Positions 30,001-64,000 of a stretch of DNA of 64,000 nt are shown in pieces; position 1 is the stretch's first letter; the number at the start of each line of letters is the position of its first letter. The notes under the pieces were generated by a model. That model did no database searches. It worked only from the letters and a program-made list of their open reading frames with translations, and was not told the origin of the DNA. A program made the position numbers and the translations under genes. The stretch spans positions 6,738,501 to 6,802,500 of the forward strand of contig NC_092571.1 of assembly GCF_037975245.1 (NCBI RefSeq), given 5' to 3'. This DNA is from Apostichopus japonicus. Taxonomy: Eukaryota; Echinodermata; Holothuroidea; Aspidochirotida; Stichopodidae.

Positions 30001-33000
30001 TACTCAACAATCATCTACTCTTGAGTAGTTGAACTCCATGATAATGTTCCATTTCACTTGTAATGTGTGACTAAGACATTCTTATCAAACTCCTGATGTT
30101 CTGTAGGTGTAACAAATGTGCCATTGTTTGAAAATGGTATTGAGAGCTGCATGTTATAACATATTTATGAGTACTTTTAGGTCAGTGAGGCAGAAAGATT
30201 TTAGAGTGATAGAATAATTCTTTTCCAAATTATGCCAAAGTAATTTAATCTGTAAGCATTGTAGCTTTGTGTGGTGTATTAAGCACAGTAATGTGGAAGA
30301 GTGACTGACATTCAATTTAGATAAATGGGAAAGAGATAAGGATCAAAACTTATCATATGATGAGGAGTTGTCAAACTGCTTCTATTGGAAATTAAATAAA
30401 CAGCGCTAGGTTTACCAAGCACTTACTGTTTGCTTAGGAACTTACAGTCCTGATTTCGTTTATGAAAGTTAAGAGAAGGAGTTTAGCACAAAATAGATAC
30501 TAAAGTATGCAACCATAATAAGGTGGCGGCAGAGTGACCCAAGGAACATTATAAACTTGTCATAATGATAATTTGTAAGTACATAGAGTTCAGTGGATGG
30601 GATGAAGCACTTTTTAATCATTATATACGACCAAGTCACAGAACCTGAAAATTATGAATCTCTGTCAAATTTTGTTGTTAATTTGGGTTGACTGGAGTCA
30701 AAACAGCATCAAATGAAAACTATTTTTACAGTAATTACCATAGATTCTTTCCATATATATAGGCAAGCTATTGAAGATAGCGAACTTTTAAGTATTCGAA
30801 AAGCTGTGTATCTAACCTGTATGTATCTTATGACTTTTGCAACATGTAGAAAAGAAAGCTGGAAGGGAGAAGAAACTGAAGAATGCGAGAGGGCGACCTC
30901 CAGATGACGAGACTCCCAGACAGAAGAAGAAGATGAAGGGAGCTGCGGCCGCCTCTGTCGATCCACCACCTATGTAAGTCCAGCAGTGTTTGCGGCTCAT
31001 GTTAATTACTTGGACCTGAGTCAAAGACTCAGTCACACTGTTCTTGACTCGTTTGAGCTGACTTGGCCAGAAATGACTCGACTTGTAAACGAATGAACTG
31101 TGACTTGACGCGCTGATACAATCACACGTTACTTGACATGAATTTTATGTGACTTCTTGACATTAGATTAGTTGTTTACAATTTTTTTGGAAAAAAAATA
31201 ATATCCATGATCGAAACAAATAGTCAGTTGATTTTATTCTGCAACTTTTCACTTGGACATTATTTCTTTGTAATATGTGTGGAGGGAGAAGTGCCTATTT
31301 TGCAGTGCAGTTGCTATCCAATCCATTTCCAAGATTATGACTGTTGTTAAAGCTTCTAGCGACAATACTGCTGGAGTTACTTGATGCAGGTGATCCATCA
31401 TACCTGCATCACTTCCCAAAAGACCTTATCGGATCTTGATGCTTTATTTGCCTTTTGCCTCAAGTATTCCTTGATAATTTGCTTTTATAATTTCACCTGT
31501 AACTTGACTTACAAAACATCAGTTGACTATAGCTTGACGTGTGAACAATTACAGTGTTCGAGAGGTAAACATATATAACAGAACAGCAGAGCTTATGCTT
31601 ACAGTGGATCAACTCATTGTCACGAATCTATGATTTCATGCTTGAACCCACCAACAACTACTTTTGTATTGAAATTGTTATATAACTTTGGAAATTATTT
31701 GCATCAGTAAGGGATGATTTTGCAGTATGAATTTTTTCATTTGTAAAGGGATGCTAAGCATCAGGCAGGAATACAGGTTTATGTTTTTTCCATGTAAGAC
31801 ATCACAAATGATTGTGTAATGTAGTTATATGAAAATTCAAACTGATGGAAGCAGACCAATGTGTTCTTTAATGAATTAACAACTTGGCCCTAATGGTGAT
31901 GTCAAAACGGGGGAATTTTACCCAAAGGTACCGGTGGTAATCTGTTACCAAGGAAACACATGTTATGTAATGACCCAGTTGGTAATATGTTGCATCTTTT
32001 GTTTTTAATTCACAGGCCGATTACTCCAATACTTAGTGTCGCCTCTGTAATAAATGGTCCATCGGACGTACTTGATATGCCAGTAGACCCTAATGAACCA
32101 ACCTACTGTTTATGTCACCAAGTTTCCTACGGTGAAATGATTGGCTGTGATAATCCAGATGTAAGTTAATCACTTACTCAAGGTTATTATTATTGTCATT
32201 GCATCTATTACAGTGAGGTTTGTCTCTAATATTGTAGTTTGATCCAGGGAGAGGTATTTATGCCTGTTTGGTCTTTAGCATTGCTGTTTTTAGCTTGCTT
32301 AACTTTAAACAGGTTAGCCTCATGTGTTGCTATCTGTTGGTTGTTATTTTGGGAACCATATGTTAACTGTTTGATTCAGATGAAGCCTGAATGACTATAA
32401 TATGCAATTCTTTTAAAAGATTAGATACAGAAAAACTGAAGGTTGACCAGAAACTTTAGCATAAGAGTTTGTCTTAACCTCAGTCATTCCACTCTGTAGT
32501 TTGGAAACTGATATCAATTAGTTCTTAAAATTGTTTGGATCTCCTTACTACCTAATGAAAAACTTATAAAAGTCACAAAACGTTGTTCTGTTCATTCACT
32601 ACTACTTGGGATATCACTCGTAAAACCAGATTTCTGGCTTTGCAGTCCCAAGTCACTCAAGTATAGGCAGTTCTTCGTGGTCTGACAATACGCAAAAGAC
32701 ACATACAACAGTAACATACAGCATAACATTAGGCTTATACGTGTGCGCAGTACAGTTGGGCATTGTGTTCAATACGTAGTGAAAGGCTACTTGAGGAAAG
32801 ACCTGAAGTAACAAATGGTTACCCGGGAGGAATTATTGGACTGTTCCCATCACTAGCTTGCATCAGTGGAAAAAAAAGCCAAAGTTTTGCTTGCAATGTT
32901 GTATTAATGGTCTCAAAGTATTTTATTGTAACTTGTTCAGTGTGATAGTGTTAGTACTGTGAAAGCATAACAACGTTCATTAGATGAAAATCAACTGATG

Positions 33001-37874: not shown

Positions 37875-37991
37875 AAGAGTAACTATGTTATACACTGCTT
37901 AATTTTTGTTCTTGTCTCATTTTGTGTTTGATTGTTCATCTTACTCCTTGTCTTGTGGGTTTCAAACTCATCAGTTTGACAATCTGTGAAT

Positions 37992-40900
37992 TCTAAAAGA
38001 TTGAATCTCTCAGCATTAAGATAGTGACAACCTTTAAGATTGAATCTCTCAGCATTAAGATAGTGACAACCTTTAAGATTGAATCTCTCAGCATTAAGAT
38101 AGTGACAATTACCTTTAAGATTGAATCTCTCAGCATTAAGATAGTGACAATTACCGTCAAGATTGAATCTCTCAGCATTAAGATAGTGACAATTACCGTC
38201 AAGATTGAATCTCTCAGCATTAAGATAGTGACAACCTTTAAGATTGAATCTCTCAGCATTAAGATAGTGACAGCCTTTAAGATTGAATCTCTCAGCATTA
38301 AGATAGTGACAAACTTACAACCTTTAAGATTGAATCTCTCAGCATTAAGATAGTGACAACCTTTAAGATTGAATCTCTCAGCATTAAAATAGTGACAACC
38401 TTTAAGATTAAATCTCTCAGCATTAAGATAGTGACATCCTTTAAGATTGAATCTCTCAGCATTAAGATAGTGACAAACTTGCAACCTTTAAGATTGAATC
38501 TCTCAGCATTAAGATAGTGACAACCTTTAAGACTGAATCTCTCAGCATTAAGATAGTGACAACCTTTAAGATTGAATCTCTCAGCATTAAGATAGTGACA
38601 ACCTTTAAGATTGAATCTCTCAGCATTAAGATAGTGACAACCTTTAAGATTGAATCTCTCAGCATTAAGATAGTGACAACCTTGAAGATTGAATCTCTCA
38701 GCATTAAGATAGTGACAATTACCTTTAAGATTGAATCTCTCAGCATTAACATAGTGACAATTACCGTTAAGATTGAATCTCTCAGCATTAAGATAGTGAC
38801 AACCTTGAAGATTGAATCTCTCAGCATTAAGATAGTGACAGCCTTTAAGATTGAATCTCTCAGCATTAAGATAGTGACAAACTTACAACCTTTAAGATTG
38901 AATCTCTCAGCATTAAGATAGTGACAACCTTTAAGATTGAATCTCTCAGCATTAATATAGTGACAGCCTTTAAGATTGAATCTCTCAGCATTAAGATAGT
39001 GACAACCTTTAAGATTGAATCTCTCAGCATTAAAATAGTGACATCCTTGAAGATTGAATCTCTCAGCGTTAAGATAGTAACAACCTTTAAGATTGAATCT
39101 CTCAGCATTAAGATAGACAACCCTTTAAGATTGAATATCTCAGCATTAAGATAGTGACAACCTTTAAGATTGAATCTTTCAGCATTAAGATAGTGACAAC
39201 CTATAAGATGAAATCTCTCAGCATTAAGATAGTGACAACCTTTAAGATTGAATCTCTCAGCGTTAAGATAGTAACAACCTTTAAGATTGAATCTCTCAGC
39301 ATTAAAATAGTGACATCCTTGAAGATTGAATCTCTCAGCGTTAAGATAGTAACAACCTTTAAGATTGAATCTCTCAGCATTAAGATAGACAACCCTTTAA
39401 GATTGAATATCTCAGCATTAAGATAGTGACAACCTTTAAGATTGAATCTTTCAGCATTAAGATAGTGACAACCTATAAGATGAAATCTCTCAGCATTAAA
39501 ATAGTGACATCCTTGAAGATTGAATCTCTCAGCGTTAAGATAGTAACAACCTTTAAGATTGAATCTCTCAGCATTAAGATAGTGACAACCCTTTAAGATT
39601 GAATATCTCAGCATTAAGATAGTGACAACCTTTAAGATTGAATATTTCAGCATTAAGATAGTGACAACCTATAAGATGAAATCTCTCAGCATTAAGATAG
39701 TGACAACCTTTAAGATTGAATCTCTCAGCATTAACATAGTGACATCCTTGAAGATTGAATCTCTCAGCATTAAGATAGTAACAACCTTTAAGATTGAGTC
39801 TCTCAGCATTAAGATAGTGACAACCTTTAAGATTGAACCTCTCAGCATTTAGATAGTGACAACCTTTAAGATTGAATCTCTCAGCATTAAGATAGTGACA
39901 TCCTTTAAGATTGAATCTCTCAGCATTAAGATAGTGACAATCTTTAAGATTGAATCTCTCAGCATTAAGACAGTGCCATCCTTTAAGATTGAATCTCTCA
40001 GCATTAAGATAGTAACAACCTTTAAGATTGAATCTCTCAGCATTAAGATAGTGACATCCTTTAAGATTGAATCTCTCAGCATTAAGATAGTGACAACCTT
40101 TAAGATTGAATATCTCAGCATTAAGATAGTGACAATCTTTAAGATTGAATCTCTCAGCATTAAGACAGTGCCATCCTTTAAGATTGAATCTCTCAGCATT
40201 AAGATAGTAACAACCTTTAAGATTGAATCTCTCAGCATTAAGATAGTGACATCCTTTAAGATTGAATCTCTCAGCATTAAGATAGTGACAACCTTTAAGA
40301 TTGAATCTCTCAGCATTAAGATAGTGACAACCTTTAAGACTGAATCTCTCAGCATTAAGATAGTGACAACCTTTAAGATTGAATCTCTCAGCATTAAGAT
40401 AGTGACAACCTTTAAGATTGAATCTCTCAGCATTAAGATAGTGACAACCTTTAAGATTGAATCTCTCAGCATTAAGATAGTGACAACCTTGAAGATTGAA
40501 TCTCTCAGCATTAAGATAGTGACAATTACCTTTAAGATTGAATCTCTCAGCATTAACATAGTGACAATTACCGTTAAGATTGAATCTCTCAGCATTAAGA
40601 TAGTGACAACCTTGAAGATTGAATCTCTCAGCATTAAGATAGTGACAGCCTTTAAGATTGAATCTCTCAGCATTAAGATAGTGACAAACTTACAACCTTT
40701 AAGATTGAATCTCTCAGCATTAAGATAGTGACAACCTTTAAGATTGAATCTCTCAGCATTAATATAGTGACAGCCTTTAAGATTGAATCTCTCAGCATTA
40801 AGATAGTGACAACCTTTAAGATTGAATCTCTCAGCATTAAAATAGTGACATCCTTGAAGATTGAATCTCTCAGCGTTAAGATAGTAACAACCTTTAAGAT

Positions 40901-42215
40901 TGAATCTCTCAGCATTAAGATAGACAACCCTTTAAGATTGAATATCTCAGCATTAAGATAGTGACAACCTTTAAGATTGAATCTTTCAGCATTAAGATAG
41001 TGACAACCTATAAGATGAAATCTCTCAGCATTAAGATAGTGACAACCTTTAAGATTGAATCTCTCAGCGTTAAGATAGTAACAACCTTTAAGATTGAATC
41101 TCTCAGCATTAAAATAGTGACATCCTTGAAGATTGAATCTCTCAGCGTTAAGATAGTAACAACCTTTAAGATTGAATCTCTCAGCATTAAGATAGACAAC
41201 CCTTTAAGATTGAATATCTCAGCATTAAGATAGTGACAACCTTTAAGATTGAATCTTTCAGCATTAAGATAGTGACAACCTATAAGATGAAATCTCTCAG
41301 CATTAAAATAGTGACATCCTTGAAGATTGAATCTCTCAGCGTTAAGATAGTAACAACCTTTAAGATTGAATCTCTCAGCATTAAGATAGTGACAACCCTT
41401 TAAGATTGAATATCTCAGCATTAAGATAGTGACAACCTTTAAGATTGAATATTTCAGCATTAAGATAGTGACAACCTATAAGATGAAATCTCTCAGCATT
41501 AAGATAGTGACAACCTTTAAGATTGAATCTCTCAGCATTAACATAGTGACATCCTTGAAGATTGAATCTCTCAGCATTAAGATAGTAACAACCTTTAAGA
41601 TTGAGTCTCTCAGCATTAAGATAGTGACAACCTTTAAGATTGAACCTCTCAGCATTTAGATAGTGACAACCTTTAAGATTGAATCTCTCAGCATTAAGAT
41701 AGTGACATCCTTTAAGATTGAATCTCTCAGCATTAAGATAGTGACAATCTTTAAGATTGAATCTCTCAGCATTAAGACAGTGCCATCCTTTAAGATTGAA
41801 TCTCTCAGCATTAAGATAGTAACAACCTTTAAGATTGAATCTCTCAGCATTAAGATAGTGACATCCTTTAAGATTGAATCTCTCAGCATTAAGATAGTGA
41901 CAACCTTTAAGATTGAATATCTCAGCATTAAGATAGTGACAATCTTTAAGATTGAATCTCTCAGCATTAAGACAGTGCCATCCTTTAAGATTGAATCTCT
42001 CAGCATTAAGATAGTAACAACCTTTAAGATTGAATCTCTCAGCATTAAGATAGTGACATCCTTTAAGATTGAATCTCTCAGCATTAAGATAGTGACAACC
42101 TTTAAGATTGAATCTCTCAGCATTAAGATAGTGACATCCTTTAAGATTGAATATCTCAGCATTAAGATAGTGACAATCTTAAAGATTGGATCTCCCTGCA
42201 TTAAGATAGTGACAA
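37992..42215. repeat. 39-bp minisatellite array, about 4.2 kb, with 1,807-bp higher-order repeat
   Basis: The unit is 39 bp: CCTTTAAGATTGAATCTCTC followed by AGCATTAAGATAGTGACAA (about 108 units by length). Variants include units with an added TTACC, with CTTGAAG, with CTATAAGATGAAAT, or with GACAGTGCCATC. Their order repeats: about 38,500-40,310 is copied at about 40,310-42,125 with constant offset 1,807 bp, and I saw no difference between the copies. Both strands stay open over long stretches because 39 is a multiple of three (TTFKIESLSIKIV on plus; VTILMLRDSILKV or CHYLNAERFNLKG on minus). There is no signal peptide, splice context or codon bias favouring one frame, so I call it non-coding. 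Confidence 0.95.
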
Positions 42216-42222
42216 CAAACAG

Positions 42223-42594
42223 CAGTGGCGTAGGAAGGTACTTTTGAGTGGGGGGCTGAAGACTGATGGCCGGCCTGGGGGAGGGGTCTAAGGGGAGGGG
42301 TGTCCCCCTCCCCTTTGGTTTTTTTTTGCATTTCCAGGTGGCCTCAGATGCAATTTGGTGCATTATAGCACACTTCAACCCACCCACTCCATTTTGTATA
42401 TAATTTTGCATTTTCACCTGGCCTTAGATGCAATTTGGTGCTCCAAATGAGATTTTTTTCTCATTTGGAAATGAAAAAGGGGTTTTCTGACTTGCGAAGT
42501 GGGGGGGGGGGGGGCGGAATGATACTTTCGCCCCTCCATATTTTTCACTGGGGGGGCGGCTGGCGCCCCCAGCACCCCGGTTCCTACGCCCTTG
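42223..42594. mobile_element. hAT-type MITE, same family as 51,593-51,950 (inverted)
   Basis: Starts CAGTGGCGTAGGAAGGTAC and ends GGTTCCTACGCCCTTG, with poly-G/poly-C near both ends and internal blocks such as ATGCAATTTGGTGC. It aligns end to end with the copy at 51,593 in the opposite orientation. The flanking octamers (...CAAACAG and TCAGACGT) do not match, so the junction with the minisatellite may have been rearranged after insertion. Confidence 0.85.
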
Positions 42595-42939: not shown

Positions 42940-45900
42940 TTAGAGTAAATAGGCAAAAGAACTCACACGGTGCCAACCGTAAACTGCTGCCCTTACTTGA
43001 AATGTTCCGTGGATTTGAAATGTATTTGTACTTTCGTTTAGGGATGTTCGGAGAATCATTCCGCCATTAGCCAGAGTTCCTATCTGGCTCCATGACGGTG
43101 TATTATTATTAACCAATAGGAAATCAGTATTTGCACCGGGTGGCAGCCACACGGTCATATGATAGTCTAGTATGTCTGATGCAACGCTTCCAATAGCAAA
43201 CAAAGGGAAAACCAAATATCGCGCAATAACTTTGTCAGAGGGCGTAACTGTTGCCATTGATAGTGAAGGCGTTAGTGTACCCTGGCCTTCCTTATAGACT
43301 GAAGTAAATTGCATCACAAGTACCGGTTTATCTGAGGATATTTCAATGTTCTCTCCATCTGGGAAAGGAAAAAGTTGAATTTCTTTGAAGTCCTCCGAGT
43401 CAATGACGTCTGTCCATTGTGAAGCCCCATATCCCCATGTAATGATGGTAGTCATGTTCCAGGGTACTATTCTCAGAATTGATGCCGACTCGCGATCTGA
43501 GAGCGGGGCGACAGAAAATGTCATTCCCCAATCATTTAAAGGAGGCATGCATTCGTAAAACATATCTTTACCCATGGTGCTGCCATCTAAATGGTCTTCT
43601 TTATTCCCAGAGACGACAAAAACTGGCTCATCTGTTACTAAGTAAACACCACTCAAATCGCTGTCACTTTCCCAGAGGATCGTTTCGTATGGCATTAGTG
43701 TAGTCGTCTGACTGATACCACTCTGAATAATATTCACTACCGTTGTTCGGTTGTAAGCCGTAACAGCGGTGACTGGATTGCCCATGTATCGGTACGATAT
43801 GACACGGTACTCCGTCCCTAACCCATCTAAAGGTATTAGTTTAAAGGTAGTAGCTTTATTGTTTTGCTGCTCTGTGCAGCGCAAATGAACGTAAGCAGCC
43901 ACCGGACGATCAGCTGAAATCATTGCCGTGGAATTTTCTTTCCTTAATGTTTGGATGCTACTAGGCAGCACATGTAACGGTATATCAATAAGGCTGCCAT
44001 TTTCACCGGTGACGAATGGAATGTCTTCAATATCGCGTAACGGAAAGGAAATGTTGCCAGATGCTTCCGTGTTTTGTGACAATGATGCAATAAAGACCTT
44101 TACCACTGCCGAGCTTGAAGAACATTCTAATGGCAACAAAGTGAAGATAAACCGTGGCTGTTGGACGCCGTGCCAGCCAGCTGAACCTGCAGAGAAAAGG
44201 AGATAAACACCACATTGAAATGGCCAATAATAGTAACATTGATATCCTCAAATGTTCACTCTGGCTGTTAACATATATTTCGACAGTATAACACCACACA
44301 TTAGACAAATAGGTAGCCCGCCTCGCCCCCTCTATATTCGGCCTCATTTACACTATAGAATTAAGTTTGGATAACCAAAGAGGAAGCAAATAGTGTTTTC
44401 CTTAGCTTTTCTTTCGATAGTGCACACTCCCTATCATAATGGATGATCCTCTACAATGGGTTCTGTCAAGTAGGAACTATGAAAGTATCATCCTCTCTGT
44501 AGTTTATTACTTACCGGGGTGTGTTTATCAGTGTACCATTGCTCTTTTGTGTCAAACTTACCTGCAGTACTTGTTTCTGTATCGTCTATTGAGTTGGTAG
44601 ACATGAGTTTCAGGCTATCAGTGGAGGAGGTTATTGTGGTGTATAACTGGTCATCAGAATCAGATGGAGTCGTTATAGACTGTGACTTCATAACCATCGT
44701 GGATGCCGCTTGATCTTTGATGAAAGGTGAAACAGCTATGATTAAATATGTGTGTGAGGGGGTATTAGCAATTACCCCCGACTCATTAAGGTATTGGGCT
44801 GAACTTTTGTGGAATGAAAGATTTTATAAAGGAGAGGACTGCACTTGGGTCATTGTAGTGGACCCCTATGTCCCCATGTCCAAATAATGATTGTGAGGCC
44901 AACCGCCCCCCCCCCCCCCCAAAAAAAGAAAAACAAATGAAAATTTTTGAATGTCTAGTGATGCATTCTGAGGCATAGATTTAGGTATATTTAAGTAGCT
45001 CTAAACTCAAGATCGTGCTTATATAAAAGAAAACTCCCAAATTCCATGACTGATATTAGGTAGTGACATGAATCTTTATGGGAAGGCTAGATGTGAACGG
45101 AGTAGTTCATAATGGAGTGGGTGTTGCCGTGGTTCATTGAAACCAGCTCCCATGTGCAGGGGTCTAGCAATTACCCCCGACTCATTAAGGTATTGGGCTG
45201 AACTTTTGTGGAATGAAAGATTTTATAAAGGAGGGGACTGCACTTGGGTCATTGTAGTGGACCCCTATGTCCCTATGTCCAAATAATGATTGTGGGGCCA
45301 ACCCCCCCCCCCAAAAAAAAAATCAAGTTTTGAATGTCAAGTGATGCATTCTGAGGCATAGATTTAGGTATATTTCAGTAGCTCTAAACTCAAGATCGTG
45401 CTTATATAAAAGAAAACTCCCAAATTCCACGACTGATTTAGATAGTGACAGGAATCTTTATGGGAGGGCTAGATGTGAATGGAGTAGTTTATAATGGAGG
45501 TGGTGTTGCCGTGGTGTCAGTGAAACCAGCCCCCATGTGCAGGGGTCTAGGGTCCTCTCCGGAAAATAAACAAGATTAAAGAAGTCAACTGGTGTATTCT
45601 GAGGCATCACATTTTGACTTTTATTTAGGTTTTTATAAGTTACTCTATATAAGGAAGGTAAATAATGATGAATTCAAAATTGAGGGGGGGGGGGGGGGGA
45701 GCTTAGACGTCAAATGGTGCATTTTGAGGCATATTTACAATGAAAATTAGATCTATAGAGTTAAACGCAAGGATTTGCTAATAAATACTTTGTGTGAGGT
45801 ATAGAAGGGCGTGGGAGAGTACACCCATCGTAGAGGTCCTATTCTTTCCGGGCAGAATGTAAAAAATCCCCGACTGGTGATCCGAAGTGGGGGATCCCCC

Positions 45901-53188: not shown

Positions 53189-54586
53189 ATGCAGCCAGTG
53201 GTCAATGGAATGGCTTTGCGAGGTATAACGTATGTCCTGATTGCCAGACTTCTCGTGGTGGGAACTGTTTGCACAAACGTCGATTTTTATGTCCAAAATG
53301 GAAGCTACAGTTTAAGAGAGGGCATGGATGTTACACTTGTGTGTTCTGTATCTGACTCATCATTACCAAGTGATATTGCTTCTTACCAAATCCTTCAAAA
53401 TAATATCGTGGTCTTATCAAATGGTTATTTAAGGGAGCCACGTCAGTACAGATTTCAGAGTATGGGAAGTAGCTCACAATTGAACTACGAACTGACATTG
53501 TTATCAACCCCACGATATTTCAACGGCGACTCATTTACATGTGAAGTGATGATACTAAAAGAGTTGTCTCTTCTAAGCTTCTCAAGGACCTTGCGGTTAT
53601 CCGTCTATTACGATCCTTCCCCGTCGTATCCAATATGCAATGACTTTCAAACAACTTCATTTTTTGCAGGAGATAATGTATCGTTTACATGTTCAAGTGA
53701 GTATGGAAACCCACCGGTGAGCATGAACGTCTCAACTAATATGGAATATCAAGCAGGGATCTGGTTAGAAGCTAATGATTTATCAAATTCTTCTTTTCTG
53801 GTTCAAACTTTGTCCCTGACAGTTAACACTTCCTTGGAAGGGATGGAATTTCGATGTGATACTTGGTCTTCCAGTGGTTACCGTAGTTCGTGTTTCTCAG
53901 GGAGGTTATATGTAAGGGACAACTTCAATGTGTCTGTCTTAACTAGAGTGGTGACCTCTCAATTTACATCTCTCGTGTGTAAATCTAATATTCCACTAGC
54001 CTCGCTCGAGTGGAACATATCTCAGATTTACCAAAAACCAGGTATCACAGTTTCTATGGATACTAGAAATGGCTCTAGCATACTTCTTGACATACAAATA
54101 GAAGAAGGACATTTACACACAGAAATCTCCGTGTGGTGTTTGGCGTCAGTAGTTTGCAATAACGGGACAGTGCTTAGGGCTTCTTATGGGTATCCCATCA
54201 GCGTGAGTGTGGGAATCGATTCAACCTTACACACCTCGACACATGTGTCAAATGAATATTCCACTAGAGATGAATCACATGACAAACGAAGCCATTTTAT
54301 GACCTCAAAACATCTTGAAATGCAACAAAGCAAAGGATTGCACAAAGGCATACCTGTGCATATTATTCTTCTAATTATAATCAACATTATCTTGTTGTCT
54401 ACGTTTGTGTTATTAGCTGTAGCTTGTATCACAGTACGTTATGTTAGACCAAGATCATCTAGTATGCAGTCCACTCTAAATGAAGTTGGTTATTCAACAC
54501 GTATTGTGAAAAGCGATCAACCGTGGATAGGCTGCAGTAAGGATCATGATAACTTCGAAGATGTTACTTATGAAGCAATGCACTGA
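53189..54586 (+). CDS. Single-exon type I membrane protein, three Ig-like domains
   Basis: 465 codons plus stop in one exon. The in-frame Met at 53,210 (residue 8, MALRGITYVLIARLLVVG) makes the better signal-peptide start, giving 458 aa. Numbering from 53,189: Ig1 about 31-140 (C52, C118), Ig2 about 150-242 (C168, C223), Ig3 about 247-341 (C264, W275, C317), a linker, TM about 389-416 (HIILLIIINIILLSTFVLLA), then a 49-residue tail ending DNFEDVTYEAMH. Y461 is in YEAM, the YxxM pattern bound by PI3-kinase p85 SH2 domains and close to an ITIM. An extra cysteine pair (C150, C235) brackets Ig2, as in the two minus-strand neighbours. The roughly dozen N-x-S/T sites suit an exposed ectodomain. A surface receptor or adhesion role is likely; the ligand is unknown and I see no close named family. 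Confidence 0.85.
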   Translation: MQPVVNGMALRGITYVLIARLLVVGTVCTNVDFYVQNGSYSLREGMDVTLVCSVSDSSLPSDIASYQILQNNIVVLSNGYLREPRQYRFQSMGSSSQLNYELTLLSTPRYFNGDSFTCEVMILKELSLLSFSRTLRLSVYYDPSPSYPICNDFQTTSFFAGDNVSFTCSSEYGNPPVSMNVSTNMEYQAGIWLEANDLSNSSFLVQTLSLTVNTSLEGMEFRCDTWSSSGYRSSCFSGRLYVRDNFNVSVLTRVVTSQFTSLVCKSNIPLASLEWNISQIYQKPGITVSMDTRNGSSILLDIQIEEGHLHTEISVWCLASVVCNNGTVLRASYGYPISVSVGIDSTLHTSTHVSNEYSTRDESHDKRSHFMTSKHLEMQQSKGLHKGIPVHIILLIIINIILLSTFVLLAVACITVRYVRPRSSSMQSTLNEVGYSTRIVKSDQPWIGCSKDHDNFEDVTYEAMH

Positions 54587-56454
54587 TAGACAAAAACAAC
54601 GAAAAACGACATGTGTAAATAACTCATTCTATGTAGCTTAGCTAAGAACTTATAAAACATAAGTATATAATATCAATCGCAGTGTTAATATTTCTAACAT
54701 GCTACGGTTAGTTGGAATCTGACCACCTTGACAAGTGATGATGCACCTGAAGTTTCGAGCATAAGGAACTATAATTCATTGTAGATATCAAAATTGTTTA
54801 TCACAATTTCGAACCACAGTGGTTACGTCAGAAATAATATAATTATATTCGGCCGGGCGAATTCAACTAAATTTAATAATATATCTATCTACGATATGCT
54901 GAAAATAGAAGCTAAAATATCAATGAATACATAAAGCTTAGCCAGAAAGTGAATCAGTTAGGTTTCGGTATCAACATTTTAGCAAGTTTCACACGTCGGG
55001 TTCTAAGACTTAGCCACTGCACTTATACCCGGGCTAATTGTACTCCAGTGCACCATAAACGTAACATCTCTCATCATGTTATGATCTTACGTGCTCATGC
55101 AAGCAGGCTAGACGAGCTTGAAACATTGATCAAGTTCCTTTGGGACTCGCTCATGCACACTTGTAACTTATAACTCAAAAAAGAGTGTATATAGCGCACA
55201 ACGGATGACATCATTGTCATCATAGTTTAGTTAACAATACGGATTTCATGAGTAACGTTCTAGTTCGTTTTTCAACGCTTGATTATGATAATGTCATGTT
55301 TTTCAGATAATTAATAGCAAGACGCCGGCATGAGTTCTATCTATTTCGTGGTTTAATTAAAACTAAATATTTCAACCATAGAAAGAAAATAATACATACA
55401 CCCCTCCCCTATAGAAGGATACGTGTTTGCGATCTCTCATGTCATGGATATTATGTAATTTATGATGTCGCATTGCTACAACCAACACACGAAATGCCAT
55501 TTTGTTTTAGGGAATATCAATGCAGCTTTATGTACTAGGAATGTAACACAACAACCGGAAAGGGTTTGTATGTAATTGATGTGTTTTTGTCATGCAAATT
55601 ATCGCCCACGTATAGAAACATTTTGTATCAAACTGTGATCGTTCGAGAAAACCGGAAACATTTAATGCCTCAACGCCTTCCACTAATTACTTTTACGACG
55701 ACGATATGCTCAGTTACAAACTTTTCTTTCATTTTGAAGTTAACACTTCGACACATGTGTCTACTACCTCTTGCAATTTACGTGCGAATATTCAAAACTT
55801 TTAGTTTAAATTGGTCAAGTGTAGTACGTTTCCCCATAGCATGCTTCTCTTTTCGGAAATTGTAAAAACTTTTCCCTGAATACTGGTCACATAATTTCAA
55901 AGTCAATATTTTGTTATCTTTCTTATATCATAAAATTATCGTCGGGGACTTATTTCCGATGCCCATGACCAACAGAACGTCTTTTTCATGTTCATAAAAT
56001 AATAGGATTGAGTGCTTTATATGACTGTAATTATGCTCTTGATGAAATATCTCTCTATTGAAATAAAAATAGGGCGTTCATTATCTGTCACAAGTCCACT
56101 CTAAATTTGTCAGTTAAGTCAAGTAAACTGAAGTATTAATTGAGGTGTATAGTTGTTACTGAACTTCGTTGCAGTAAGAGTTGTTTCTGCAACATTCAGA
56201 ATACAATGGAAACCTCGTCTCGAAGAGATAGTCAAACGACGGAGAGATATTGCGTAATTGATCATTCTTTCAATATCAATGCGTATAGTTGTAGTGGTAT
56301 ACAGCAGTCTTTAGATGTTCCAGTGGTCGTCCTACAGTGAAGTTAGTGAACTCAGCAGCAACACACTATACGCGGATGATCCTCACGGTGTATATGCATA
56401 TCAATGAGCAGTATGTGCTTTACTTGTTGTTGTTACTTGTTGTTGACAGGGTAG
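54587..56454. other. Convergent intergenic region, no gene recognised
   Basis: Contains the 3' flanks of two converging Ig genes. An AATAAA on plus lies at 56,062-56,067. The short frames here lack signal peptides, domains or splice context. Confidence 0.35.
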
Positions 56455-57807
56455 TCAAGGTAACTGAGCCACGGGCGGTAAGTCATAAAGGTCCTCATCC
56501 AAAGGAGTTAATGGCGATCTTTCGGTATCCTCATCTGCAGAGCCTACACTAGTTATACTAACATGATGGGGCCGTAACTGGTATCTGCCATCGGGTAGCG
56601 TAGTCAACATCATATCACTGTCTTTTGCCGGTGGAAATGAGACGAACTCGTTTGTTTCGGCCATCTTGGATCCCTCAGAACTATCTTTGCTTTTCCGACA
56701 CTTTCGTATTGTAAAGCATATGATAATGAAAACGCAAATTAAAAATATAGAAACCAAAACAGCTACAGAAATCAGAATCAGTGTAAACAAAGGAATAGCA
56801 AGACCCGGTGTTTCTGCAGTAGGTGAAGAAGATACCGAAAATATGTAACTTGTCGACAGGTTCATCCCGTATGCCGTTCCTACGCATGAAATGTTAATCT
56901 CTCTCCCAAGGTTCGACAAGCTCGACAGATCAGTAAATGTTATGTAAGAAGTCTCATTAGTACTAGCAATGACGTAATTGGTAGGAACGTCCAGCCACTC
57001 GATCGTGCCGACATTGGTTTGCCACGGTGTAATGCGACAACTAAACGTTCTGTTGCTTGATGTGCTCCCTGGGTTGATTTCTATAATAGAAATGAAAGGA
57101 GAGTTATAAACAACGACTGGCCCTAACGTACACGATAAGTTCGATGTAGTTTGTGGGTTATCATCTGTTTCTGCAATGCATATAAAACTAGTACCATTCA
57201 TCTCAGCTTTGATGGAGAGAGTTGCATTATCTACAGCTGAGAATTCATCCTCTGTTCTCTCTCTCTCCAGTGCCTCGGACCGATCTTCACTTCGATACCA
57301 CTTCACTCTCCTGGTCGGTTCGCGGTATATTGGGTTGTAACAAGATAAAACAAGTTTCTCTCCAACCAAATATTCCAATGTATTTTGCTTGTTCGCTAAA
57401 CAGATTGGCATCCTTTCATCCACGGATAATGCATATTCAGCAGATGTGACGTCACCTCCATCAGTCATCCCAACACACTCATATATCCCACTGTGTTCCA
57501 TGCGAGTTAAATTCTCAAAGGTTAAAAAGTATAAACTATTGGAGGATAACGAAATAACCGAAGATTTCGTAAATTTAGGAAGATTATCCACCTGTATGTC
57601 TTTTCCTACGTAACTTATTATACTGATGTTATCTTTGAGCCACGTTTGCGATTGAAATCTGCTATGGACGGTGCAAAGTACATTGAGAGGTATCCCTTCA
57701 AATAGATGTGGTGTATCTCGTAGCAGCTTGATTGATACATCAGATTCGGCATAGGTTATTGTAAACGAACACAGGATCAATGCCGTCACACCAATAAAAC
57801 CCTGCAT
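56455..57807 (-). CDS. Single-exon type I membrane protein, three Ig-like domains, LPDGR tail
   Basis: 450 aa in one exon. Signal peptide 1-20 (MQGFIGVTALILCSFTITYA). Ig1 about 22-128 (C45; HSGIYEC with C111). Ig2 about 134-228 (C156, WY at 170-171, C210), bracketed by C136 and C226. Ig3 about 234-325 (C257, W271, C308). TM about 337-367, then a basic stop (RKCRKSK) and a tail of about 80 residues. The tail holds DMMLTTLPDGRYQL (398-411, Y409) and an acidic end DEDLYDLPPV (Y441). It is a tandem paralogue of the 60,814-62,112 gene: same order, EYLVGEKLVLSC versus EYLIGEQIELTC in Ig2, and the shared tail motif. About eleven N-x-S/T sites. No canonical ITIM or ITAM. A surface receptor is likely; the partner is unknown. 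Confidence 0.88.
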   Translation of the reverse strand: MQGFIGVTALILCSFTITYAESDVSIKLLRDTPHLFEGIPLNVLCTVHSRFQSQTWLKDNISIISYVGKDIQVDNLPKFTKSSVISLSSNSLYFLTFENLTRMEHSGIYECVGMTDGGDVTSAEYALSVDERMPICLANKQNTLEYLVGEKLVLSCYNPIYREPTRRVKWYRSEDRSEALERERTEDEFSAVDNATLSIKAEMNGTSFICIAETDDNPQTTSNLSCTLGPVVVYNSPFISIIEINPGSTSSNRTFSCRITPWQTNVGTIEWLDVPTNYVIASTNETSYITFTDLSSLSNLGREINISCVGTAYGMNLSTSYIFSVSSSPTAETPGLAIPLFTLILISVAVLVSIFLICVFIIICFTIRKCRKSKDSSEGSKMAETNEFVSFPPAKDSDMMLTTLPDGRYQLRPHHVSITSVGSADEDTERSPLTPLDEDLYDLPPVAQLP

Positions 57808-60747
57808 AATGATTAAGATTACTGTACACTATTTCTAATACTATGAAACAAATTTAGCAGAACCAAATGTCACAACACCTTTCCAGTATAATGAATGACT
57901 TCCTGTCTCTTGCAATGGTTGGTTGACACTTGTATCCTATATGCGTGTCAACGTCCTAATTTGTAGAAATTTTTGTATCTTTGGAAACGAAATCATAAAC
58001 AATTATATATAGACATCTCTTTATCCAAATTCTGCAATCACAGTAAAGGTGCCCCTTGAATCGTTGTTGTGCAAAATATTGCTTGCCGACAGAAGCAGAA
58101 TTGCGTGCTTCACGGATCCGTCATGTTAGTTATTTTCCTGAAGATGTGGTTATTTATACTTATTGATATCCTCCTCAACGTACAGTCACTGTTGGATTGT
58201 TCAATCGACTATGCTGACATCATATCGTGCAGACGTTAATGCGTACCTTGGATTCAATGTGAACACACCCTGGTCGTTTGAGAATAAACACATATGAAGA
58301 AAGACACATGTAGCGTATATGCTGATATGCAGGTACCCCATTGTATTGGTGGAGTGTACACACTGATTCAGCATAAGATGCGTTCGTCATGCCCGGTGTA
58401 CCCTGATAAATGGTTCCACCTACACCTATTGCCCTTCGCAGGTCACTTCATTGTTATACTGCAACAAACAACGTCTGGCAGTGTAATTAACCTTGTATTA
58501 TATTAAAAGTCAGATACCAATATATGATTCACTCGCCAAGGTTTTAGGATAATAATTCGTTAACTCAGCACACACACACCCACACACAAAATGTTACACA
58601 ATAGAAGGTGCGGTACACATGCTAGAGTTTTGCACTACCAACCCCTGAAATCGACTAATATTTTACTACAATAAAATAACACAGTCATTATAAATGCACG
58701 TTTTTTTCTTCAATTTTAGTTCAACTGCTTTTCATGGATCTAGCGATCTATTGTGTATTTTGCATGCTATTCATGCACTCTCCCAATCCTGTTGGTGTGA
58801 TTTTATGGTGACGTCAACAGCCGATGGGTGACATCATAATGGCAATTTAGCTAAAGAGGCCTAGTCGTTCTTCTTTGTTATATAGGAATATTGTATCAAA
58901 CAAGAAAGAGGAAAATCCCCCACCCCACCCTGCCCTGCCCCCACCCCATCCTGCTCCGGCATTTTATAATGAGGCTTGAAAAATTTGAAACAAACGCTCA
59001 ATGGCCTGCCGTAACAAGCATACACTGAACTTAATTTAAAGACATGGAAGACATGGTATATATTTGATATCATTCAAGTAGACTAATAATGTGATGTTGA
59101 AAATCATAAGCGTCCTTTATAATGTGATTAATAGACACAAACTTCTAACTTATTCGTATTAAATGACGTCGTCAGTAGAGCATTAAGTCCCTTATTTTCA
59201 ATACTTCAGTAGCAATGATATTCTTCCCATTTAATGTAATAGTCATTTTGGCTCGGCTATTAATTCAGCTGTTTCCTATATCTATTGCTGGCCATTGTTG
59301 CTCTTATTAACTAAAACAAGTCTTCAGTTTCATAAGACCAGGTTCAAAAGTTTAAGCATAACATTTTTTATTTGTGAAAATGAAAACGTCAGTTTCCAAG
59401 TACGAAATACTGAAACCACCACACTGTACTAACAAACCTAACATCACAACCAAACACCGTCACGCCCGTAGCCAGGCCGGGCAAGGGGCGTGCCCCACCC
59501 ATCTCCGTGCAGACCACTGTGCCCCCATCTCTTTATCTATCAATGATGTGTATAAAAAACATCACAAGTTACAAGTCAAGGATGTCGTGCCCCTCATTAA
59601 ATTGGTTTTGTCCCTCCAACTCAGATTTCTCGATACGGACCTGCCAATCATGATTATAAAGTGTTGCATACGACGAACCAAATCTCAACGCTTACGTCAC
59701 CATATGATTTGGATGTGATGTTTCTGCTAGAGAGACCACTCCATCAAGTAGCTTCGAATGGTGCTTTGTGGAGTGATTAAGGCAGATTTTATGGAAGCGT
59801 CGATGCCTTTTTCTCTCTATACCGCCTTGTAGTATGTATGCTAACCATTAAACTAGCGGTATGCCTACTCCAGAGGAACATTTATTCTTGCTATGTATCG
59901 TTTTCGAGCAAACAACATTTGAAGTTGACATACTTTGCTTCAAAAGTGAACTTGAGGCAAATAAATGTGATGTCATAATTGTACACCAACAAATTTGTGT
60001 TTTGTTTATCTTTGCAGTCTTCACCATATGATTACAATTCGTTTAGCGTATTGATAATGTCATACCCCGCTAAAACGACCCTATCCAATCCAAGGCTAAA
60101 ACAGTAAAGTAACAAAAAAGAGACACAAACACTTTTCTGTCAATGTGCAACAAAATTAAATCACATCTATTTACTTTACGTTTACTTACGGTACAAACTG
60201 GGACAATATCTGGAAAGCAATGTAGGAATTATAAACAATTGTAACGAAGTTACTTAGAATATGTTCTTCTGTCACTAGCAAAAAACAAATTTTCTTCTAA
60301 TATATAATTTTAGGAGAGGTATAATTTTTTTTTGTATGAAAAGTTTCTAGCAATATAGATATCTACAGTTGCATCATAATAACGCCTGAATTACGCCAAT
60401 GAAATAACCATTTTGTTTTCTTAATTAACCAATTAATTATGACATCAGAATGTTTGATAAAAACAATTGAGAACATTTCAGATCAAATTGAATTCTAGCC
60501 CCGGGAAAGTTTCTCTGAATAAACAAAATGTAATGAAAATCCATTCACAATGACCCTTCGCACCCGAGAAGCGGTTATCTATAGGTTGTTCTTGAACCCA
60601 TGTGTGTACATAAATACGTCTCACTTGTTGCAGCATACATTACAGGTTTATCACTGGGTAAAATAGGTATAGCAAACAATAAATCGATATATTAATTTAT
60701 CTGCAACTATCTGTCTAGACATCTATATATATATATATATATATATA
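57808..60747. other. Intergenic; one hAT-like fragment, no gene
   Basis: About 59,455-59,690 begins CACGCCCGTAGCCAGGC and has the look of a non-autonomous hAT-type end; the open frame across it (59,374-59,718) is a by-product. A poly-C/CCCCACCCC stretch lies near 58,920. The rest, including the upstream region of the 57,807 gene, shows no exon. Confidence 0.4.
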
Positions 60748-60753
60748 TTTATT
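60748..60753 (-). terminator. Poly(A) signal for the 60,814-62,112 gene
   Basis: AATAAA on minus, 61 bp below the stop codon, at the edge of an (AT)n microsatellite (60,726-60,748). Confidence 0.45.
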
Positions 60754-60813
60754 TTTTAATTTGTAGTTATTCTGTATTGTTATTAGACTACCGGTAGGAC
60801 CAACCAGAGAGGC

Positions 60814-62112
60814 CTATTCTGCCCTCCACTGTCCGCCTTGAGGATTGGTAGGTGGGGCTCCGTTAAGTTCGTCAGTACTTGAGAGGTTAATAAAGTCACC
60901 GGCATGGGATTGTTTCATATCATTAGAGTATAGTCGTTCTTGTAACTGTAGTCTTCCATCGGGCAGTTTAGTTAGTACCATGTCTTGTTCATACGCGTTC
61001 AGTACAATGTCAGGGTTTGAATCCTGTAAGTGTGATCCATCTGTTCCGGAAAAGCCGAATGAACCTCTCTGATAACCTTTGACTAGTATTTGCCAGCCAG
61101 ACCATGCTATGACTATTGCACCAACAAACAGTAAAATACCAGAAATAACTGAAATTGTAATAAAAAAACGATTGTTTCCATTGGAGATTCTAACAAAAGT
61201 TAAGTTATATCCTGAAATAAAACTGTCGTTGATCAATATCCCGGCGCATGAAATACTATATGTTATTGTGTCCTCCACTGGCGATGAGAAATCGTAAATA
61301 GTTAAAGTAGAATCGACTTGTGAATCTGAGATTTCCATAGATGTAATGTTGGGTTCAATGAACCACTCGTAGACTACTCCTTTCACTTCCGGTATTAATC
61401 GACAAGTTAATGTGAACGAGTCGTTAAGTTGACTCCCTTCCTCAATTGAAATGTAATACGAGTCGTAAACAAAAATAGGCCCTATTGAACATGACTCAGA
61501 CATGTTCTGATTTTCAATGTAGAAACAATCAAAGTTTGTTGAATTATGCACTGAATCAAGAGAAACGTTCACAGAAGATGAAGATGAAGAGACCACCATT
61601 TGAGAAGGATAAAGCCTGGAATTATTCCAGAACCAACCAGGTACGTTACTATTCAGACTATCACACGTGAGCTCGATCTGTTCACCTATTAAATATTCCT
61701 GCCGTCCACAGACTTTAGACTTACACTGCAGTGACTCAATAGTTACGGTCAAGAAAAATTCGGCTTTGTTGCTCTGGTTTATCAAACATGTGTACAATCC
61801 ACTATCACTGACAGTTGCAACATCAATCGTTATAAAAAGAAAGAGACTAGGCGGTGCTGACAACAAGAAAGCTTTCTTCCCATCGGCCTCTATTTGCGTC
61901 ATATTCGGGAAGACACCAAGAACAGTACCATTGTGTGAAAGTGTTACTGAGTCGTTTACTGAAAACGACGTGGATGAACAGTATACTGTGACAGGTGAGC
62001 CTTCTAAGACGATGTCATCTGTCACCGAGAATTCAATCTGACCGATCACGAATGGAACTAAGAGTATGAATAACACCATCAAGTTAGCTGGTAACAGAAA
62101 TAAACTATCCAT
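60814..62112 (-). CDS. Single-exon type I membrane protein, three Ig-like domains, LPDGR tail
   Basis: 432 aa in one exon. A long hydrophobic signal at 1-24 (ANLMVLFILLVPFVIGQ). Ig1 about 26-124 (C45; textbook DSGLYTC, C109). Ig2 about 130-212 (C150, W162, C196), bracketed by C130/C135 and C208. Ig3 about 218-306 (C237, W250, C289). TM about 316-340, then a tail of about 90 residues. The tail holds DMVLTKLPDGRLQL (377-390), the same motif as the paralogue at 56,455-57,807. Y395 (YSND) has the YxN pattern used by GRB2-type SH2 domains. A serine run (SSSSSS, 175-180) lies in Ig2. About a dozen N-x-S/T sites. It lies head-to-tail with its paralogue, 3.0 kb apart. An acceptor-like CTTCCAG 10 bases before the ATG leaves room for a noncoding 5' exon. 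The ligand is unknown. Confidence 0.88.
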   Translation of the reverse strand: MDSLFLLPANLMVLFILLVPFVIGQIEFSVTDDIVLEGSPVTVYCSSTSFSVNDSVTLSHNGTVLGVFPNMTQIEADGKKAFLLSAPPSLFLFITIDVATVSDSGLYTCLINQSNKAEFFLTVTIESLQCKSKVCGRQEYLIGEQIELTCDSLNSNVPGWFWNNSRLYPSQMVVSSSSSSVNVSLDSVHNSTNFDCFYIENQNMSESCSIGPIFVYDSYYISIEEGSQLNDSFTLTCRLIPEVKGVVYEWFIEPNITSMEISDSQVDSTLTIYDFSSPVEDTITYSISCAGILINDSFISGYNLTFVRISNGNNRFFITISVISGILLFVGAIVIAWSGWQILVKGYQRGSFGFSGTDGSHLQDSNPDIVLNAYEQDMVLTKLPDGRLQLQERLYSNDMKQSHAGDFINLSSTDELNGAPPTNPQGGQWRAE

Positions 62113-62999: not shown

Positions 63000-63260
63000 A
63001 GTCTGTATGAGAATCGTTCAATGTCCCCCCCCCCCCCCCTATGCTAGCTCATTGTCAACCGCTCAACCTTAGATTCCTACTCACTTCCTTTTCCGTTGCA
63101 GAAAACTTCTGAAGGTACAAATTGTGATAACTTCTGCAAACATAAAATACTGTGTCATTCATGGGCGGCGATCCTGGGGGGGAAGGGGGGATATATCCCC
63201 CCCATGAAAATGGGTGGAGGGGATGTAATACACCATATCCCCCCCCCCCACCAAATGCCA
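63000..63260. repeat. Poly-C/poly-G repeat fragment
   Basis: CATGGGCGGCGATCC at about 63,159 starts a block of G runs, GATATATCCCCCCCATGAAAA and a second C run. The style is that of the window's non-autonomous DNA elements, but the termini are not paired. Open frames across it are by-products. Confidence 0.45.
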
Positions 63261-63859
63261 GGGATAAGAATTTTTTCATGCCTACATTTATGCATCATCG
63301 TGAATGTACGGCTCTTTTTTAGCTTCATTTCTCGCCTACCATAAACGCAGTGCGATCTTTTCAAATAAACCGTCTTTATAAAGCAAGAATAGTTGACTGT
63401 AGGCTTCATTGGCCCTATAACAACAAACTGTATTATTGCGCCCATGGTATTGATATAGTACATATATGCACCCTCATAGTATTCATATAGGCCCTATAGT
63501 AGGCCTACACACGTACATGTTCCCTCGAACAGCTGAGAATCTCATGTTACCAGGGTAATGCTTAATACACGTTTCACCTGGATGCCCTAGCAATCGGTAC
63601 CTAGGAATGTAACTATGTGTAATTGTGTATTGCATGTGTATAGGCCTATAATAGCCTGCATGAGGCCATTTTCTTCATCGAATAATATAAAAGAGCTCTC
63701 GAACATTCTAACGTAGCGCCTGAAACAAGACTGACAGGGGCAATTTTCCCAAAATAAAACCCGAAATTAAAAAAAAAGTATTTTGGATCCTGATTATGAG
63801 ATATTTCGGACATGATATCCCTATTTTAAAGTTGGGTATATGGCGCTTGGAAACCTCGG

Positions 63860-64000
63860 GAAGTGCCGTTTCCGGCCATCTAGAGGGTTTGTAAATCCCA
63901 AAATTTTCTTGTACGCTTCGCGCCAACTCATGGTGGCGCTACGCTTAGATAGTCAACAAGGTCATATCCCCCCCCCCCCCCCACTCGGAAGTACGGATCG
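63860..64000 (+). mobile_element. Fragment of the hAT family seen at 6,520-7,315
   Basis: TTTCCGGCCATCTA, GTACGC(T)TC(G)CGCCAAC, ATGGTGGCGCT and CGCTTAGATA correspond in order to 7,168-7,250 of the left element. The poly-C run that follows also matches its right part. The fragment runs off the window edge. Confidence 0.7.

Follow-up and report, generated by a model that had tools for sequence, protein, structure and literature searches.

Large tandem families of Ig receptors that pair recognition with tyrosine signaling are best known from vertebrates, where the KIR, LILR, CEACAM, FcRL and Siglec receptors form expanded clusters and carry tyrosine motifs in their tails. Vertebrate nectin/PVR/CADM proteins, whose genes are split, combine three Ig domains with one transmembrane (TM) helix and a short tail. 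Sea urchin Toll-like receptors are expanded echinoderm immune-type receptors, mostly encoded by single exons, and Sp185/333 (SpTransformer), Hydractinia Alr and amphioxus VCBP are families whose clustered genes are highly diverse or have reassorted sequences. Among echinoderm Ig genes without introns, the nearest one described is KirrelL, which according to its published description encodes a skeletogenic Ig-domain TM protein acting in cell fusion, and for which the authors propose an origin by retrotransposition (PMC8903837).

We analyzed a window of 64,000 nucleotides from the sea cucumber Apostichopus japonicus (GCF_037975245.1, NC_092571.1:6,738,501-6,802,500, forward strand; all feature coordinates are relative to this window). 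It holds three genes that, like KirrelL as published, lack coding introns and encode Ig domains and one TM segment; the KirrelL description covers one gene, whereas the sea cucumber family comprises about a hundred arrayed loci with varied tails (PMC8903837). The first-pass annotation had proposed an undescribed immune-receptor locus: topical searches of an open-access library yielded no description of this expansion, but "undescribed" has to be qualified, as an intronless echinoderm Ig membrane protein was already on record as KirrelL (PMC8903837).

Gene 1 (P0001; 53189..54586, plus strand; 465 aa) encodes in a single coding frame a signal peptide, Ig1, Ig2 (53627..53908, with an extra flanking cysteine pair), Ig3 (53906..54202), a stalk, a TM segment (54362..54436, by hydropathy) and a tail of 49 aa with one YxxP (YVRP) and one YxxM (YEAM). 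It converges on two tandem genes of the minus strand, as previously annotated, each a single coding frame for a signal peptide, three Ig domains, a TM segment and a tail. Gene 2 (P0002; 56455..57807; 450 aa) has its Ig2 at 57115..57411, again with the extra flanking cysteine pair (C136, C226), Ig3 at 56821..57117, the TM segment at 56707..56778 (hydropathy) and a tail of 83 aa with one YxxP (YDLP). In gene 3 (P0003; 60814..62112; 432 aa), the signal peptide and Ig1 (61738..62112) form a block that has diverged from a second copy discussed below, followed by Ig2 (61474..61734), Ig3 (61183..61476), the TM segment (61093..61164, hydropathy) and a tail of 92 aa that contains no YxxP, YxxM or Yxx[ILV]. 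The tails of genes 2 and 3 have in common the motif DMxLTxLPDGRxQL (56575..56616 and 60943..60984, respectively). A neighboring minus-strand ORF at 42940..44247 matches the IgGFc-binding (FCGBP-type) domain (Pfam, E 1.5e-28), in agreement with the annotated FCGBP neighbor; it lies outside the receptor family and serves as context. We use "intronless" for the coding frame as read from genomic DNA, which leaves room for a 5'UTR intron.

The three window ORFs are confirmed as real and exactly placed. In first-order Markov sequences modelled on the surrounding 11 kb (200 controls), the longest stop-to-stop frame had a mean length of 117 aa and never exceeded 208 aa. All three proteins have an N-terminal hydrophobic segment and one strong TM segment (peak 19-residue hydropathy 2.7-3.3). 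Pfam searches found Ig domains in all three, with curated cut-offs passed by P0002 and P0003 and P0001 slightly below (Ig_2, 26.1 against 27 bits). In the window proteins, Ig3 had no Pfam match at cut-off; a profile of Ig3 built from 28 family members matched PDB Ig domains with E-values down to 1.5e-28, and an Ig2 profile built from 29 members had SYG-2 as its best PDB match (3.7e-24). An AlphaFold model of P0002 (mean pLDDT 40.3), computed with the three window proteins as sole input, adds no support.

Searches of the animal's own genome retrieved at least 151 merged loci on 12 contigs, after exclusion of repeats of one locus and of short fragments, including 15 upstream fragments. At 112 of these loci the open frame measured 400 aa or more, and 105 of the 112 had no stop in the longest match (a count that includes three loci from a second copy at C11:10.19 Mb). 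Because the queries were intact frames, the searches favor single-frame relatives, and lower-scoring split relatives (two short-frame matches on C12) are uncounted. As a control, 150 generic Ig_3 matches scored in the same genome had a median frame of 139 aa, with 119 below 200 aa and 17 of at least 400 aa, which bears out that ordinary Ig genes in this genome are split. The 84 fetched genes include four groups whose members are at least 98.5% identical, with 6 surplus copies in total that may likewise be haplotypes. These results support the window genes as members of a large family of single-frame three-Ig receptors, about a hundred genes in clusters, and are the outcome that the first-pass annotation had named as support for an expanded family.

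A signal peptide, three Ig domains, a TM segment and a tail were recognized by hydropathy in one frame at 84 of 86 parsed loci, the exceptions being L006, which is broken and split between two frames, and L088, an odd form. Eight ectodomain cysteine columns, among them the extra pair flanking Ig2, are present in the window proteins and kept in 80-84 of 84 aligned ectodomains, and W271 is kept in all 84. A Pfam scan of 15 members returned Ig families and weak TM or tail matches, and listed no LRR, TIR or chitin-binding domain. In these 15 members the family therefore differs from sea urchin Toll-like receptors, having neither an LRR ectodomain nor a TIR tail, and from VCBPs, which are described as bearing chitin-binding modules, while it also has a TM segment; Sp185/333, Alr and VCBP are built from other domains. 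That the frames are pseudogenes or an artefact, an already disfavored reading, could draw on the 7 of 112 long frames with a stop, the 39 of 151 loci with shorter frames and the split L006, but the three intact window frames, the eight cysteines conserved across 84 proteins and the purifying selection on P0002 described below make it extremely improbable.

Judged by sequence comparison, the window genes are old lineages and not fresh duplicates. P0002 and P0003 are 24% identical (BLASTP, E 5e-16) and P0001 matches neither of them significantly in BLASTP, so we rejected the view of three recent tandem duplicates. The converging geometry is correctly described, but the suggestion that it shows a family still duplicating here is not supported. 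Recent expansion is seen elsewhere, in the arrays at C11:27 Mb, C23, C4 and C5.

The only near-identical copies of the window genes lie at C11:10.19 Mb, on the same chromosome and in the same orientation, about 3.4-3.7 Mb away, with 95-100% protein identity. A true recent segmental duplication, and hence a window cluster that is still duplicating, would account for this placement and identity. The two copies, however, stay collinear for 1 Mb or more, interrupted by insertions and with an identity that varies from place to place (roughly 86-99% at the cluster and 92-94% at the two points +0.36 and +1.05 Mb), which is the pattern of two haplotypes placed in series. The second copy is thus probably an uncollapsed haplotype; we consider the segmental duplication unlikely and did not retain this copy as proof of ongoing local duplication. 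A 20 kb DNA search was swamped by a repeat and missed the known second copy, so its absences mean little.

In the comparison of the two copies, P0002 is under strict purifying selection, with 6 differences that are all synonymous (0 nonsynonymous). Gene 3 behaves differently along its length, with about 10 synonymous and 23 nonsynonymous differences in the signal peptide and Ig1 against 2 and 0 in the remainder of the gene. Two copies, possibly alleles, that differ sharply in Ig1 and are nearly identical elsewhere would fit a self-recognition repertoire (allorecognition, or neuronal or coelomocyte identity) in which identity is encoded by combinations of heads, and the head divergence and head/tail reassortment reported below point the same way. 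Against this, the allelic status of the two copies is itself an interpretation, and pN in the Ig1 block (0.079) does not exceed pS (0.108), giving a ratio not above 1; we regard self-recognition as quite improbable.

We examined how the parts of the genes are combined in the C11:26.98-27.60 Mb array, defining the head as the signal peptide plus Ig1. The set comprised 22 genes, 21 from this array and one on C18, leaving aside L050 (whose fetched frame is shorter than listed) and array loci with broken or short frames; the window genes lie outside this array. Four head types and four tail types, at cluster thresholds chosen by the analyst, occur in 11 combinations among the 22 genes. Identities of heads and tails are uncorrelated (r = 0.05), whereas those of heads and Ig2 are correlated (r = 0.80). 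Heads are very divergent, with as little as 20% identity inside a single array, and dS between head groups is at least 1.4 or saturated over codons 1-150 against 0.16-0.42 over codons 181-330. In this array, heads and tails combine independently around a homogenized Ig2/Ig3 core. Since dN/dS is mostly below 1 in all gene parts (0.32-1.13), with no consistent positive selection, the data do not clearly point to an arms race. We tentatively propose, as a reading that falls somewhat short of probable, that the roughly one hundred single-exon Ig receptors form a germline repertoire, in which recombination or gene conversion through the Ig2/Ig3 core shuffles heads and tails as modules and neither introns nor somatic rearrangement are involved. 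If true, the repertoire would be modular, with one recognition unit connected to different intracellular outputs and one output to different recognition units.

Tail motifs were counted in 43 nonredundant tails out of 82 and compared with 2000 shuffles. Yxx[ILV] occurred 69 times in 37 tails against 41.8 times in 26.3 shuffled tails, a value reached by 0 of 2000 shuffles, and YxxP 41 times in 21 tails against 20.5 times in 13.0 (0 of 2000 by count, p 0.008 by tails). Both enrichments survive removal of three repeat-rich tails, and neither motif is enriched in the ectodomains. Within the window these enriched motifs amount to one YxxP each in P0001 and P0002 and none in P0003. The strict ITIM [ILV]xYxx[ILV] is unenriched, with 9 occurrences in 9 of the 43 tails against 6.0 in 5.6 shuffled tails (p 0.16 by count, 0.10 by tails), and none was found in the three window tails among the matches listed; we therefore do not call these proteins ITIM receptors in the strict sense. 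A broad form of the ITIM gave p 0.0015 by count and 0.07 by tails. NPxY was borderline (4 in 4 tails against 1.4, p 0.057 and 0.036), and YxxM, Grb2-type YxN, PxxP and ITAM showed no enrichment in the tails. YAx[ILV], which resembles the core of many ITIMs, is enriched and present in 17 of 43 tails, a post hoc result because the motif was selected after inspection of the tails. The family hence resembles the vertebrate ITIM-receptor clusters in being clustered, expanded and equipped with tail tyrosine motifs, and differs from them in lacking strict-ITIM enrichment, in the prominence of YxxP, in being intron-free and in its independent expansion.

The main competing account of the family's role is a KirrelL-like adhesion or fusion family used in tissue building (skeletogenesis, regeneration), whose expansion would reflect developmental or body-wall diversity and not immunity. 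KirrelL, a TM protein with Ig domains, is reported as intronless in all echinoderms examined and as needed for skeletogenic cell fusion (PMC8903837). The best match of the Ig2 profile, SYG-2, is a Kirrel/nephrin-type protein, and a 15-member family profile aligns with nearly all of nectin-like PVR (chain residues 40-372, E 4.8e-20) and also matches CADM4, a profile-level similarity that spans the whole ectodomain. Sequence similarity to nectin/PVR/CADM proteins is nonetheless low, and the extra Ig2 cysteine pair and the single coding frame set the sea cucumber family apart. Each window gene represents one old lineage, and purifying selection such as that on P0002 is expected of a conserved adhesion gene. 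A tandem-arrayed family of roughly a hundred loci that includes recent, nearly identical copies, very divergent heads and swapped tails would however be unusual for developmental adhesion genes, and we view an adhesion role as possible, if on the doubtful side.

Immune recognition is the likely role of the family as far as its sequences allow a judgment, and we lean slightly towards an overall explanation in which old single-frame receptors recognize through Ig1 and signal through tyrosine tails, after one loss of introns and with reassortment in arrays. The membrane-distal Ig1 would recognize a ligand, either microbial or self on another cell, with Ig2-Ig3 as a shared stalk, and phosphorylated tail tyrosines would recruit SH2 proteins: YxxP points to adaptors of the Crk type, and both YAx[ILV] and Yxx[ILV] point to phosphatases or kinases with SH2 domains. 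Introns in the coding region would have been lost once, before the expansion and probably via retroposition, and the single exon would then have spread by tandem duplication and recombination, the heads and tails of the C11:27 Mb array being reassorted through the homologous Ig2/Ig3 core. The receptors might serve immunity on coelomocytes. Points against this explanation are the lack of strict-ITIM enrichment, the dN/dS values, the few enriched tail motifs of the window genes, which also lie outside the mosaic array, and KirrelL, the closest published intronless counterpart in kind, whose role is in cell fusion and not in immunity. The interpretation given in the first-pass annotation is partly supported.

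A family this large in an echinoderm, encoded in single frames and showing head/tail reassortment at silent sites, would mean that a germline repertoire for Ig recognition has been reached by a second route, independently. KirrelL, whose known role is in skeleton formation, would then fall within or next to a receptor family of far greater size. With one exon per gene, cloning and expression of the receptors would be simple, and the use of the arrays by coelomocytes in immunity or allorecognition becomes testable. With about a hundred genes, some of them with mix-and-match heads and tails, this sea cucumber may possess an extensive inherited collection of receptors for recognition.

The Apostichopus japonicus genome holds a large family of single-frame, three-Ig type I receptors with shared cysteines, genomic arrays, docking-motif enrichment in their tails and modular mosaicism. 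The three intronless receptor genes of the window that the first-pass annotation had proposed were recovered as exactly placed open reading frames: gene 1 at 53189-54586 (+, 465 aa), gene 2 at 56455-57807 (-, 450 aa) and gene 3 at 60814-62112 (-, 432 aa). Among 200 first-order Markov sequences modelled on the surrounding 11 kb, the mean length of the longest stop-to-stop frame was 117 aa (maximum 208). By hydropathy, each protein has a signal-peptide-like N-terminus and one TM helix, leaving tails of 49, 83 and 92 aa (genes 1, 2 and 3). Pfam Ig matches were found in all three, over the cut-off for genes 2 and 3 and slightly under it for gene 1, and profiles of the family Ig2 and Ig3 matched Ig domains of known structure; an AlphaFold model of the gene 2 protein, with only the three window sequences as input, was poor. 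An IgGFc-binding (FCGBP-type) ORF lies next to them at 42940-44247 (-), as had been annotated. The window also contains a long minisatellite (37883-42247), in which several frames, on both strands, are open, and, at ~63156-64000, a repeat with at least 38 copies among the matches listed (96-98% identity, many contigs).

We searched the genome (671,581,487 bases, 35 contigs) with nine single-protein queries, the three window proteins and six fetched relatives, yielding at least 151 merged family loci. Of the 151 merged loci listed, 112 carry an open frame of 400 aa or more, and in 105 of these the longest match is free of stops. These 112 loci lie on C11, the window's contig (46), C23 (20), C21 (12), C4, C5 and C19 (7 each), C13 (4), C15 (3), C18 and C20 (2 each), and C6 and C16 (1 each), with arrays at C11:26.98-28.33 Mb, C23:10.54-11.15 Mb, C4:14.93-15.07 Mb, C5:3.98-4.02 Mb, C19:14.38-14.43 Mb, C21:5.17-5.26 Mb and C11:24.72-24.75 Mb. 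As a control, 150 scored matches to the generic Ig_3 profile in the same genome had a median frame of 139 aa (119 below 200 aa, 17 of at least 400 aa); because these frames are short, ordinary Ig exons are mostly one-domain and the single-frame family is exceptional. On C23, Ig_3 also matched frames of 2607 and 2348 aa (14.964-14.967 and 15.020 Mb) and a run of frames of 507-646 aa (14.973-14.997 Mb), additional single-frame Ig genes, some of them huge. One member at C11:24.745 Mb (L006), divided over two frames of 435 and 222 aa, is apparently a broken gene within an otherwise intact array. At C23:10.77-11.15 Mb, 13 of 14 array genes have, ~600 bp upstream, a fragment resembling their own signal peptide and the start of their Ig1; the one examined in sequence (L020, bases 250-560) is interrupted by stops.

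Among 86 parsed loci (3 from the window, 83 fetched), 84 have a signal peptide, a ~310-430 aa ectodomain, a TM helix and a tail, the exceptions being the broken L006 and an odd form, L088. The eight cysteine columns are conserved in 81, 80, 83, 84, 84, 83, 84 and 84 of the 84 aligned ectodomains, and the Ig3 tryptophan in all 84. Of the four cysteine pairs, three correspond to the standard Ig pairs; the remaining one (C136 and C226 in gene 2) brackets Ig2 and would form an additional disulphide. The whole-family profile matched the nectin-like PVR almost end to end and also CADM4 and SYG-2, the last being the best match of the Ig2 profile.

Modularity was examined in 22 genes, 21 from C11:26.98-27.60 Mb (L017, L018, L031, L036-L049, L051-L054) and one from C18 (L027). 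Four head types (signal peptide and Ig1) and four tail types occur in 11 combinations, the two commonest tails each being paired with all four heads, and pairwise identity of heads is uncorrelated with that of tails (r 0.05) and correlated with that of Ig2 (0.80). A sliding comparison of nucleotide identity along the codons of 13 chosen gene pairs reveals switches. L031 and L053 are 34-59% identical over codons 1-165 and 91-94% over 206-486 (except 85% at 247-286), L051 and L043 are 86-93% identical up to codon 320 and 41-53% thereafter, and all 13 pairs keep 91-96% identity over codons ~205-250. Over codons 1-150, synonymous divergence between head groups is 1.4-1.9 or saturated; over codons 181-330 it is 0.16-0.42, the within-group level. 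Since protein constraint alone does not lower silent divergence, recombination or gene conversion accounts better for this pattern: heads and tails reassort around a homogenised Ig2/Ig3 core. By domain, we found no consistent dN/dS excess above 1 (range 0.32-1.13).

To assess tail motifs, we kept 43 of 82 complete tails (<60% similarity) and used 2000 shuffles as control. The set contains 69 Yxx[ILV] motifs, spread over 37 tails (shuffled, 41.8 in 26.3; no shuffle as high), and 41 YxxP motifs, spread over 21 tails (shuffled, 20.5 in 13.0; 0/2000 by count, p 0.008 by tails). Both enrichments persist after removing three repeat-rich tails, and neither motif is enriched in the ectodomains. In the same 43 tails the strict ITIM is not enriched (9 vs 6.0, p 0.16), nor are YxxM, YxN, ITAM or PxxP; the broad ITIM is enriched by count (24 vs 13.3, p 0.0015) and unclear by tails (p 0.07), and YAx[ILV], a motif chosen post hoc, is found in 17 tails vs 1.9 expected. 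YxxP is bound by Crk-type and YxxM by PI3K-type SH2 domains. The window tails are modest, with YVRP and YEAM in gene 1, YDLP in gene 2 and none of these motifs in gene 3. At C11:18.425 Mb, L008 (bases 193-2343, -) has a 356 aa tail whose tandem repeats contain YLVP nine times and YLAP once, which can be likened to a built-in adaptor-docking array; the tails of L079 (C11:25.90 Mb) and L087 (C20:5.94 Mb) feature a repeated QTYS[TR]TI unit and 47 tyrosines in 365 aa.

A quick 73-row tree (near-duplicates removed; the program warned of long branches) places genes 2 and 3, with an SH-aLRT of 97, beside the C11:24.7 Mb array and the gene on C6; gene 1 is basal to a C11:27/C4/C19 group (SH-aLRT 90, not starred). 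The tail motif DMxLTxLPDGRxQL is common to genes 2 and 3 and absent from the other members among the 86 parsed loci. The window genes are old lineages. Copies of genes 1, 2 and 3 at C11:10.19 Mb have 97, 100 and 95% protein identity. Collinear homology reaches leftward as far as the comparison extended (window position 31960) and rightward beyond the window; sequences sampled at 7.10 and 7.79 Mb have counterparts of 92-94% identity at 10.49 and 11.47 Mb. The two regions, C11:6.77-7.80 Mb and C11:10.17-11.48 Mb, are collinear near-duplicates over at least 1 Mb, and with their insertions and patchy identity they resemble two haplotypes in series; the second copy is probably an uncollapsed haplotype, although it may be a true duplication. 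Between copies, gene 2 has 6 synonymous and 0 nonsynonymous changes, gene 1 about 8.5 and 16.5, and gene 3 ~10 and 23 in the signal peptide and Ig1, with 2 and 0 elsewhere. If the two copies are alleles, the Ig1 of gene 3 stands out as a block of sharp divergence; with a pN/pS of ~0.7, this divergence is no evidence of positive selection.

The nearest described protein in kind is KirrelL, an intronless echinoderm Ig-domain membrane protein for which its authors proposed retroposition (PMC8903837). Introns may likewise have been lost by retroposition here; Ig1 would bind ligand, the tails would signal via SH2 domains and the receptors may be used in immunity. Among the open-access titles listed by topical searches, we found no description of this expansion; a 2026 paper on extended gene families in a sea cucumber genome never uses the word immunoglobulin, and passages of two reviews make no mention of the expansion. 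The expansion, the divergent heads and the swapped tails speak for recognition; the low dN/dS and the precedent of KirrelL call for caution.
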